From Bacillota bacterium (GTDB taxonomy: Bacteria > Bacillota > Sulfobacillia > Symbiobacteriales > ZC4RG38), in the NCBI GenBank assembly GCA_021890795.1, contig JAKKUO010000002.1, forward strand, positions 62,001 to 126,000: a DNA stretch of 64,000 nt, read 5' to 3'. The notes under the pieces are model-generated. The model was not told where the DNA came from, searched no databases, and worked only from the letters and a program-made list of their open reading frames with translations. The translations under genes were made by a program, and so were the position numbers. Below are positions 61,241 through 64,000 of the stretch, piece after piece (position 1 is the stretch's first letter; every line of letters begins with the position of its first letter).

Positions 61241-62125
61241 ATGCCGCCCTTTGGCCGGTTGATCACCGCGATGGTCACGCCCCTGGCCCCGGACGGCAGC
61301 GTCGATTACCCCCGGGCCCGGGAGCTGGCCCGGCGGCTGGCGGACCAGGGCAACGACGCCCTGGTGGTCGCCGGCACCACCGGCGAATCCCCCACCCTCA
61401 CCCGGGAGGAGAAGCTGCGGCTCTTCGCCGAGGTGGTCGCGGAGGTGGGGGACCGGGTGCGGGTCATCGCCGGAACCGGCACCAACAACACCCAGGACTC
61501 CATCGCCCTCACCCGGGAGGCGGAAGCCACCGGGGTGCACGGCATTCTGCTGGTGACCCCTTATTACAACCGGCCGCCCCAGGAGGGGCTCTACCGGCAC
61601 TTCCGGGCCATCGCCGAGGCGACCCGGCTGCCGGTGATGCTCTACAACGTCCCCAGCCGCACGGCGGTGAACCTCGCCCCGGCGACGGTGGCCCGGCTGG
61701 CCCGAGACTGCCCGAACGTGGTCGCCCTCAAGGAGTGTGTGGCCGACCAGGTAGGGCCGGTTCTGGCCCAGGCCCCGGAGGGGTTTGCGGTCTACTCCGG
61801 CGACGACGCCGCCACCTTGCCGATGATGGCCCAGGGCGCGGCGGGGGTGGTGAGCGTCGCCAGCCACCTGGTCTCTCCCCAGATGCGCCGGATGATCGAC
61901 GCCTACATCCGGGGCGACGTCGCGGAGGCAGCCCGGATCCACCGGGAACTGCTGCCCCTCTTCAAGGGGCTGTTCCGGACCACCAACCCGATCCTGGTGA
62001 AGGCAGCCCTGGAACTGGTGGGCTTTCCCGTCGGCGGCCTGCGGCTCCCCCTGGTGGAGGCCACGGCGGAAGAGCGGGAGGAACTCCGCCGGGTGCTGGC
62101 CGCGGCGGGCTTGCTGGGAGCGTGA
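61241..62125 (+). CDS. dapA: 4-hydroxy-tetrahydrodipicolinate synthase
   Basis: DapA condenses pyruvate with aspartate semialdehyde, the first committed step to lysine, diaminopimelate and dipicolinate. The 294-residue product has FGRLITAMVTPLAPDGSVDY, the AGTTGESPTLTREEK motif, catalytic Tyr135 in LYNVPSRTAVNL and the Schiff-base Lys164 in VVALKEC. ATG follows AGGAGGTGAGAGG. The last codons and stop are duplicated 42 bases downstream. It is followed by a strong terminator, ending the operon. Confidence 0.97.
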   Translation: MPPFGRLITAMVTPLAPDGSVDYPRARELARRLADQGNDALVVAGTTGESPTLTREEKLRLFAEVVAEVGDRVRVIAGTGTNNTQDSIALTREAEATGVHGILLVTPYYNRPPQEGLYRHFRAIAEATRLPVMLYNVPSRTAVNLAPATVARLARDCPNVVALKECVADQVGPVLAQAPEGFAVYSGDDAATLPMMAQGAAGVVSVASHLVSPQMRRMIDAYIRGDVAEAARIHRELLPLFKGLFRTTNPILVKAALELVGFPVGGLRLPLVEATAEEREELRRVLAAAGLLGA

Positions 62126-62169
62126 GGAGGCTTACCAGGAGAATCAGGAGGATTGCTGGGAGCGTGAGG
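62111..62169 (+). repeat. 17-bp direct repeat of the dapA 3' end
   Basis: TTGCTGGGAGCGTGAGG occurs at 62111-62127, covering the last dapA codons and stop, and again at 62153-62169 just before the terminator. The spacing of 42 bases keeps the frame, so the second copy would also read Leu-Leu-Gly-Ala-stop. Confidence 0.9.
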
Positions 62170-62200
62170 GGGCCCTGGTGCACCGGGCCCCTGTTTTTTT
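62169..62200 (+). terminator. Intrinsic terminator after dapA
   Basis: GGGGCCC (62169-62175) pairs with GGGCCCC (62185-62191) around TGGTGCACC, followed by TGTTTTTTT. A strong terminator that ends the dap/dpa operon. Confidence 0.9.
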
Positions 62201-62230
62201 GGTTTCCCCATATTGCTCACCACAAACTAC

Positions 62231-62259
62231 TTGCATCTTGAGCGAAAGTGCGGTTTAAT
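62231..62259 (+). promoter_or_regulatory. Sigma-A-type promoter of the riboswitch/HD-GYP unit
   Basis: TTGCAT (62231-62236), a 17-base spacer and TTTAAT (62254-62259), in an AT-rich stretch. A second TTGACA occurs at 62315-62320 but its -10 is poor. The leader from here to the gene is about 310 bases. Confidence 0.65.
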
Positions 62260-62357
62260 GTTTTGCAAGAGGATTTGTTAGTGACACGCAACGACCGGCG
62301 TTCCAAGGTCCCTGTTGACATAGGTGTAGGTTCCTGCTGACATCGTTGCACCAAGGT

Positions 62358-62453
62358 CTCCCGACAAGGGCAAACCCGGCGAAAGCCGGGGGCGCAAAGC
62401 CAAGAGCCTACAGCGGGCCGGCCGGCCCGCCATGGTCGTCTGGCTGCCGGGAG
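62358..62453 (+). promoter_or_regulatory. Cyclic di-GMP-I (GEMM) riboswitch aptamer
   Basis: The aptamer is closed by CTCCCG (62358-62363) pairing with CGGGAG (62448-62453). Inside are the strongly conserved GEMM parts: AGGGCAAACC, the GCGAAAGC tetraloop hairpin, GGCGCAAAGCC, AAGAGCCTA, then a second hairpin ending with ATGGTCGTCTGGCTGCC. The order and spacing match the c-di-GMP-I class. It is followed about 20 bases later by a terminator, and then by a gene for a predicted c-di-GMP phosphodiesterase. Confidence 0.92.
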
Positions 62454-62471
62454 GTGCCGGGCCACTGCGCG

Positions 62472-62511
62472 CCCGTCGCCCGGGCATGCCCAGGCGGCGG
62501 GTACTTTCTTT
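62472..62511 (+). terminator. Terminator in the riboswitch expression platform
   Basis: CCCGTCGCC (62472-62480) pairs with GGCGGCGGG (62493-62501), with one G-U pair, around an inner GGGCATGCCC hairpin, followed by TACTTTCTTT. It lies between the aptamer and the gene, so the riboswitch probably acts on transcription. Whether ligand turns it on or off cannot be told by eye. Confidence 0.75.
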
Positions 62512-62575
62512 GCTGCCCGGGGCCGGGTTGGTCGCCCGGGGTTCCGGTCGGTTCCGACGGGGAGGTGTCGGAAGG

Positions 62576-64000
62576 TTGGCCAGCCTGACCAGGGGGGTAC
62601 TGGCCCATTCACAAAGCCGCCAGTGGGCGGAGCGATGCCGGGAACAGGGGCTCCGGCTGCTTGAGCGGGGCCTGCTGGTGGCCGCAGCCTGCCACTTCGA
62701 GGAGTGGCTGTGGGCCGTGGAGCCCGAGGGGGACCCCAACCAGGTGGTGTCAGCCCTGAACGCCCTGGCTTCTGCCGAGCAGCTCCGGGGAGAGCACGGC
62801 ACCGCCCTGGGCTGGCTGCGCCGGGCGGAACCGTACCTGGACAGCCCCGCCCTGGACCCCCGGCAGCGGATCCGGTACCATCTCAACCGATTTGTCTCCC
62901 TGCACTGGCTGGGGGCTGACGGGGAAGCCCGCCAGGTCGCGGAGGAGGCGGTGCGGCTGGCGGAGGCGTTGGGGAGCCCGGACCTGGCAGCGGCGGCCCT
63001 GCTCAACCGGAGCGCAGCCCTGGCCCGAGAGCAGGACTGGACGGGGATGAGGGAGGCGGCCGCAGAGGCCCTGGAGCACTACCGGCGCCTGGGAGACCCC
63101 CAGGGGGTGGTGGCTTCCCTGACCAACCTGGGGATCGCCCACCTGGAACTGGGGGAGCTGAGTAGGGCCCGGTCCGCCCTGGAGGAAGCTCTGGCCCTTG
63201 CTGAGGGCATGGCCCGGGTTCGGAGCGCGGGCCGCTTCGCCCCTCCGCCCCTGGGGTACATCCTGACCGAACTCGGCCGCCTCTCTCACCAGGAGGGCGA
63301 CCTGGACGGCGCCCTCCGGTGCGCGGCCCGGGCCCTGGAGGCCCTGCTGGCGGATGTGGCCACCCTGGACAAGGAGGAGGTCGCCAAGCTGTCGGAGCTC
63401 TTCGGCCGGATCTTCGCCGACCGGGGGGAGGTCCACCTGGCCCTCCGCTACCTCAACCGGGCCGCGGCCTACTTCTCCCAGTTGGGCCGAGTGCCGGAGT
63501 GGCAGCGGGTGGTGGACGCCCTGCAGCAGGTGCTCCAGCGCCGGGCTGGCCGGCTGCCGCCGGCGCCCCAGTTACCGGTGCCGGGCCTGGACTTCCTCAC
63601 CGCGGTGCTGGACATGACCGATGAGCTGGAGACGGTGGACCCGTACATCCGGAACCACTGCGAGCGGGTGGCCGCCCTGGCGGTGCTGCTGGGGGAGGCC
63701 CTGGGCCTTACCCCCCGGGAGATCCGTCTGCTCCGGTACGCCGGCCGGCTCCACGACCTGGGCAAGGTGGCGGTGGATGCCCAGATCCTGGCCAAGCCCG
63801 GCCCCTTGACGCCCCGGGAGTGGGAGCGGATCCGGGTTCATCCGGTGGTCGGCGCGGAGATGCTCCGCCCCTTCGGCCTGGAGGAAGAGGGGTTGGCAGC
63901 AATCCGGCACCACCACGAGCGCTGGGATGGCACCGGTTACCCGGACGGCCTTCGGGGCGAGGAGATTCCCCTGCTGGCCCGGATCCTGGCGGTGGCCGAC
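62576..64000 (+). CDS. TPR + HD-GYP domain protein, predicted c-di-GMP phosphodiesterase (cut by window end)
   Basis: The frame is open from TTG 62576 to the end of the window, 475 codons, without a stop. The first 330 or so residues are tetratricopeptide-like helical repeats (e.g. VVASLTNLGIAHLELGELSR and LGYILTELGRLSHQEGDLDG). From about residue 342 comes an HD-GYP domain with LLRYAGRLHDLGKVAVDAQI, where the HD pair is followed by Gly-Lys. IRVHPVVGAEML, HHHERWDGTGYPDGLRGEEI and ILAVAD follow. HD-GYP enzymes hydrolyse c-di-GMP. The start follows GGAGGTG (62561-62567) by eight bases. The gene lies behind the c-di-GMP riboswitch. Confidence 0.9.
   Translation, partial: MASLTRGVLAHSQSRQWAERCREQGLRLLERGLLVAAACHFEEWLWAVEPEGDPNQVVSALNALASAEQLRGEHGTALGWLRRAEPYLDSPALDPRQRIRYHLNRFVSLHWLGADGEARQVAEEAVRLAEALGSPDLAAAALLNRSAALAREQDWTGMREAAAEALEHYRRLGDPQGVVASLTNLGIAHLELGELSRARSALEEALALAEGMARVRSAGRFAPPPLGYILTELGRLSHQEGDLDGALRCAARALEALLADVATLDKEEVAKLSELFGRIFADRGEVHLALRYLNRAAAYFSQLGRVPEWQRVVDALQQVLQRRAGRLPPAPQLPVPGLDFLTAVLDMTDELETVDPYIRNHCERVAALAVLLGEALGLTPREIRLLRYAGRLHDLGKVAVDAQILAKPGPLTPREWERIRVHPVVGAEMLRPFGLEEEGLAAIRHHHERWDGTGYPDGLRGEEIPLLARILAVAD

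Follow-up and report, generated by a model that had tools for sequence, protein, structure and literature searches.

When a class I c-di-GMP riboswitch precedes the gene of a putative c-di-GMP phosphodiesterase, the question arises whether the signal would induce or shut off the enzyme that destroys it. We analyzed a 64,000-nucleotide stretch of DNA (the window) that carries such a leader, together with orthologous leaders and other class I riboswitches from the same bacterial class. The comparison points to a transcription-terminating OFF riboswitch, which would probably close a positive feedback loop on c-di-GMP. The aptamer with its intact binding-site nucleotides, the hairpin, the HD-GYP motif and the conserved linkage are established computationally; for the window itself we infer the ligand, the sign of control, the activity of the enzyme and the loop.

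The aptamer, its leader and the gene behind it

A cmscan search of the whole window yields one Rfam match at or above the gathering threshold, the c-di-GMP-I-GGC model RF03167 at 62360-62452 on the + strand (65.2 bits, cut-off 59; E 3.8e-13). The general c-di-GMP-I model RF01051 scores 71.4 bits at the same site (cut-off 35; genome E 5.2e-14), and P1 pairing gives exactly the limits of 62358 and 62453 from which the first-pass annotation had read a GEMM-I aptamer, so that both its call and the significant c-di-GMP-I match it looked for are borne out. Residues G20, A47 and C92, which contact the ligand in Vc2 (PMC4744006), correspond to G62369, A62396 and C62447 in the window, and their equivalents are invariant in an alignment of eight orthologous leaders. 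The RF03167 consensus has a G at the A47 position, which to judge from the model alignment is the mark of this variant, while the window has an A, as in RF01051. An altered ligand, as the "-GGC" label might suggest, was rejected because of this A; the element is thus treated as an ordinary c-di-GMP-I aptamer and is predicted to bind c-di-GMP. RF03167 is also the best label for leaders L008, L047, L146, L148, L009 and L012, despite an A at the same position. On leaders with this A the label may be a misleading annotation of ligand specificity.

The gene (L003:2576-4138) encodes 520 residues and extends 138 bases beyond the window, which leaves the last 45 residues outside. Translation is likely to start at TTG 62576, which has the Shine-Dalgarno sequence GGGGAGGTG; an earlier in-frame ATG at 62432 falls within the aptamer. 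Pfam identifies a TPR_12 domain (residues 138-210) and an HD_5 domain (348-511, E 1e-39), in agreement with the TPR and HD-GYP parts read in the first pass. The protein shares with PmGH-type HD-GYP enzymes seven of the eight metal ligands (H361, H393, D394, H422, two His within 445-447, and D475), the equivalents of D183 and K225 (D355 and K397), and the HHExWDGxGYP motif. It differs from PmGH in its N-terminal TPR region and in having Y357 at the position of E185. A Tyr in place of this third-metal Glu assigns the protein to the Y/F subfamily, which is predicted to be binuclear (PMC4159591). The best solved relative is the 3',3'-cGAMP phosphodiesterase 5z7c, followed by PmGH. The HD-GYP assignment is firm by sequence, and phosphodiesterase activity with c-di-GMP as the substrate is predicted.

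Upstream of the aptamer lies a candidate promoter (Table 1) in a block conserved in the sister species G002, the nearest relative. A strict consensus scan finds no promoter, so the candidate is weak. The inverted repeat CTTGCA (62230-62235)/TGCAAG (62264-62269) flanks it and could be an operator. Downstream, a hairpin follows the aptamer after 18 nt. Its stem (62472-62484/62489-62501) consists of 9 bp, one mismatch and 3 bp and is capped by a CATG loop, and the Shine-Dalgarno sequence lies 47 nt past it. The first-pass annotation had called an intrinsic terminator at 62472-62511; the hairpin stands (stem 62472-62501), whereas its U-tract is only weak. The T-tract of the window is of poor quality, and that of G002 is worse. 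A terminator consensus scan of 62100-62700 returns two terminator-like sites where 0.8 are expected, and is therefore weak evidence by itself. Read from the sequence, 62453-62462 and 62471-62480 are complementary except for one mismatch.

Table 1. Features of the riboswitch locus, in window coordinates
Feature	Position	Strand	Basis and remarks
dapA, upstream neighbor	61241..62125	+	NCBIfam TIGR00674
Candidate promoter: TTGCAT (62231-62236), 17-nt spacer, TTTAAT (62254-62259)	62231..62259	+	read from sequence
c-di-GMP class I riboswitch aptamer, including P1	62358..62453	+	RF03167 and RF01051 scores
P1 5' strand CTCCCG	62358..62363	+	pairs with CGGGAG 62448-62453
P1 3' strand (62448-62453) and proposed antiterminator 5' arm GGTGCCGGGC (62453-62462)	62448..62462	+	inferred
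Terminator-like hairpin CCCGTCGCC-c-GGG-CATG-CCC-a-GGCGGCGGG	62472..62501	+	sequence and folding; identical in G002
Weak U-tract TACTTTCTTTG	62502..62512	+	sequence
Shine-Dalgarno sequence GGGGAGGTG	62559..62567	+	sequence; 8 nt before TTG 62576; kept in G002
TPR + HD-GYP gene, predicted cyclic-dinucleotide phosphodiesterase	62576..64000, leaves window	+	Pfam, metal-ligand set

Conservation of the pair and its genomic setting

Full-length orthologues of the HD-GYP gene are present in ten genomes of the window's bacterial class. In eight of them the riboswitch lies directly upstream (G000, which is the window's own genome, and G002, G001, G090, G065, G010, G014 and G037); these span at least six families, with protein identities to the window from 93% down to 34%. 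No riboswitch was found in front of the orthologues in G036 and G012. A further copy in G082 (L247/L048; G082:C264:136-1553) breaks into two reading frames near 1116, by either a frameshift or an assembly error, and is followed by rnjA. The G082 contig ends just upstream of this copy, which is outside the count of eight in ten.

At this locus, dpaA, dpaB, asd (assigned by reading and synteny), an aspartate kinase gene and dapA precede the leader, and dapA has its own strong terminator near 62172-62205; RNase J (rnjA) and a ClpP-related gene lie downstream of the HD-GYP gene. Within the window's order (G000, G002, G001 and G090) the gene follows dapA, and rnjA comes next wherever the contig is long enough (L238-L240, L247). 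In four other families these dapA/rnjA neighbors were not found and the riboswitch is still there. That the neighbors change and the riboswitch stays implies that the pair has been kept together through relocation.

The hairpin position is kept in most orthologues, and the T-tract behind it varies: it is good in G090 (TTTTTT) and G014 (TTTTCGTTT), weak in G000, G002 and G001, and absent in G065 and G037. The G037 leader (L145:3068-3154) has no terminator and carries a likely Shine-Dalgarno sequence, GGTAGGTG, immediately behind the aptamer. A TACC immediately ahead of P1 might base-pair with this sequence, a hint that translation is what the ligand would switch off in that genome.

The window's own genome contains five GGDEF matches and flagellar rod genes, and c-di-GMP is likely synthesized there. 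A second class I riboswitch (L001:1501-1589; G000:C89:11768-11856) precedes a gene for a methyl-accepting chemotaxis protein, with its terminator, GCCGGACC...GGTCCGGC followed by CTTTTTCG, past the aptamer. Together, the GGDEF matches, the rod genes and this riboswitch indicate that the bacterium has both the signal and the outputs it usually controls.

Sign of control

Among the six orthologous leaders with a terminator-like hairpin, P1 and the hairpin are separated by 13-26 nt and overlap in none. Automatic calls across the class place the terminator past the aptamer in 67 of 79 cases and overlapping it in 12. The 12 overlapping terminators were considered as ON switches, and several of them (L035, L179, L199, L001) are composite stems with the terminator proper past the aptamer. 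Where there is no overlap, the ligand-bound aptamer and the terminator are able to coexist, and a P1 3' strand that can capture the 5' arm of the terminator would be the antiterminator of an OFF switch.

Such complementarity is seen at the level of the class. In 58 loci the aptamer 3' end (P1 3' strand) is more complementary to the 5' arm of its own terminator than in swapped pairs (p = 0.0035), and the result holds for the 42 non-redundant loci left when related leaders are removed (p = 0.004). The controls give p = 0.59 for the terminator 3' arm and p = 0.61 for the P1 5' strand. Compared with shuffled sequences, the class-wide z is -1.22 ± 0.22. For five orthologous leaders the shuffle p values are.61,.036,.15,.028 and.52, which combine to about 0.03 by Fisher's method, with G002 left out as too close. 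Swapping aptamers and platforms among six orthologues puts the native pairs modestly ahead, which is not significant by itself. In the window alone, complementarity does not exceed that of shuffled sequence (z +0.31), being drowned in a very G+C-rich leader. The layout of an OFF switch is thus found in six leaders and its complementarity is significant class-wide but not for the window alone. The first-pass remark that the window gives the parts and not the sign was right.

Folding gives a mixed answer to the suggestion that aptamer and terminator be folded together. In equilibrium folds of the full leader the terminator prevails whether the aptamer is formed or not (coupling about 0), and any control must therefore be kinetic. 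In partial transcripts of the free RNA, the terminator 5' arm is sequestered by upstream sequence; imposing the aptamer fold sets it free in G000, G002, G090 and G014, weakly in G001 and not in G010. Part of this direction is inherent in the method, since an imposed aptamer takes competing partners away from the hairpin and cannot add any; the real evidence on sign comes from the swap and shuffle tests.

These results favor a mechanism in which the transcript of the TPR-HD-GYP gene would open with a class I riboswitch that shuts the gene off by terminating transcription. In the ligand-free RNA, the aptamer 3' end (C92, the P1 3' strand and the spacer) would pair with the terminator 5' arm and allow read-through. 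With c-di-GMP bound, P1 would be locked and its strand unavailable, so that the terminator could form and transcription would stop before the gene. If the HD-GYP enzyme cuts c-di-GMP, a low signal would give more enzyme and a high signal would turn the enzyme off, a self-reinforcing loop that could make a firm choice between a low-signal and a high-signal state.

The first-pass annotation had named the opposite loop first. In that case c-di-GMP would prevent the terminator and induce its own destroyer through an ON switch, giving a negative, homeostatic loop. Such a loop has physiological appeal, some class I riboswitches do turn genes on (Vc2 has been described as a gene-on switch; PMC12564702), and an RNA this rich in G+C has many alternative folds. 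However, ON switches are usually built so that P1 shares sequence with the terminator 5' arm. Such an overlap is missing from all six orthologous leaders and is infrequent and partly composite among the automatic calls, and a P1 3' strand complementary to that arm is the requirement of an OFF switch. Layout and class-wide complementarity together make positive feedback likelier than a self-limiting loop, and we consider an ON switch unlikely. Control could instead act mainly on translation or RNA stability, or the leader could be non-responsive, with a hairpin that is no working terminator. The weak or absent U-tracts in five leaders and the position of the Shine-Dalgarno sequence in G037 would fit this, as would the class I riboswitch Bc1, which binds its ligand without a response in vivo (PMC11218506). 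Against it stand the kept hairpin position, the good T-tracts of G090 and G014, and the distance between hairpin and Shine-Dalgarno sequence in the window; we regard this reading as quite improbable.

The ligand could also be a related molecule, for example 3',3'-cGAMP, which the HD-GYP enzyme would then act on as well. Both the best Rfam label and the best solved relative of the protein lean this way, but the invariant G20, A47 and C92 equivalents do not: in class I riboswitches it is a G20A change that permits cGAMP binding (PMC7288161). RF01051, too, is well above its cut-off, and a cGAMP system appears very unlikely. Returning to the OFF switch, a more far-reaching reading is that RNA and enzyme form a bistable c-di-GMP module, kept through relocation, that ties the c-di-GMP state to spore formation. 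The tie is drawn from the place of the pair in one order, flanked by dipicolinate/lysine genes (dpaAB-asd-dapGA) on one side and by rnjA on the other; we hold this reading to be speculative and rather improbable.

Related systems and other class I riboswitches

Arrangement, riboswitch and enzyme are all of known kinds. What is new is that the pairing with one TPR-HD-GYP family is conserved, that it occupies a constant dapA-rnjA position in one order, and that the sign is argued by comparison. The leader shares with c-di-GMP-I (GEMM-I) RNAs (RF01051, clan CL00126) the aptamer fold, the G20/A47/C92 contacts and the position in the 5' leader. According to reviews, GEMM RNAs precede a number of genes for diguanylate cyclases and phosphodiesterases (PMC12564702, PMC7266159); what sets the present case apart is that one particular target, a TPR-HD-GYP gene, is kept across at least six families, with a sign inferred by comparison. 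The literature mentions control of turnover enzymes by c-di-GMP riboswitches, but reviewers stress that the targets are mostly output genes.

Class I riboswitches of C. difficile, the flagellar one included, are OFF switches (PMC11477304, PMC4744006). Cd1 before flgB is likewise a class I aptamer in a Gram-positive bacterium, and flagellar genes are the main targets in the window's bacterial class as well. C. difficile class I switches are described as not controlling c-di-GMP metabolic genes as a rule (PMC11477304), whereas here the target is a predicted turnover enzyme. A comparable circuit, though no relative, is that of E. coli PdeL, in which c-di-GMP represses expression of a c-di-GMP phosphodiesterase and positive feedback has been proposed (PMC5052742). 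In both cases c-di-GMP would lower the amount of its own destroyer; the PdeL protein itself senses the signal and acts as the transcription factor, while here the sensor would be an RNA and the enzyme an HD-GYP protein. The layout described here would close a positive loop and offer a small RNA-based example of a self-locking signal, alongside the protein-based loop of PdeL.

Behind 114 other class I loci of the same bacterial class, the first gene encodes a flagellar rod protein in 33 cases, a TadE-like protein in 10 and a transglutaminase in 8. Another HD-GYP protein follows in 5 (Pfam HD_5) and a GGDEF protein in 2, which makes control of turnover enzymes a minority yet recurrent theme. Pfam gave the five HD_5 matches as a total among the 114, with the loci unnamed. 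Our guess from reading the sequences is that the HD-GYP first genes are those at L160 and L223 (G046, G026), L171 and L224 (G058, G046) and L021 (G047), apparently of another architecture (membrane/GAF type). An unusual target is seen in G001, where a riboswitch (L012:1502-1607) lies about 230 nt before a gene that reads as pyrimidine-nucleoside-phosphorylase-like. In G012, two class I riboswitches stand in tandem in one leader (G012:C16:290-373 and 493-583; L169).
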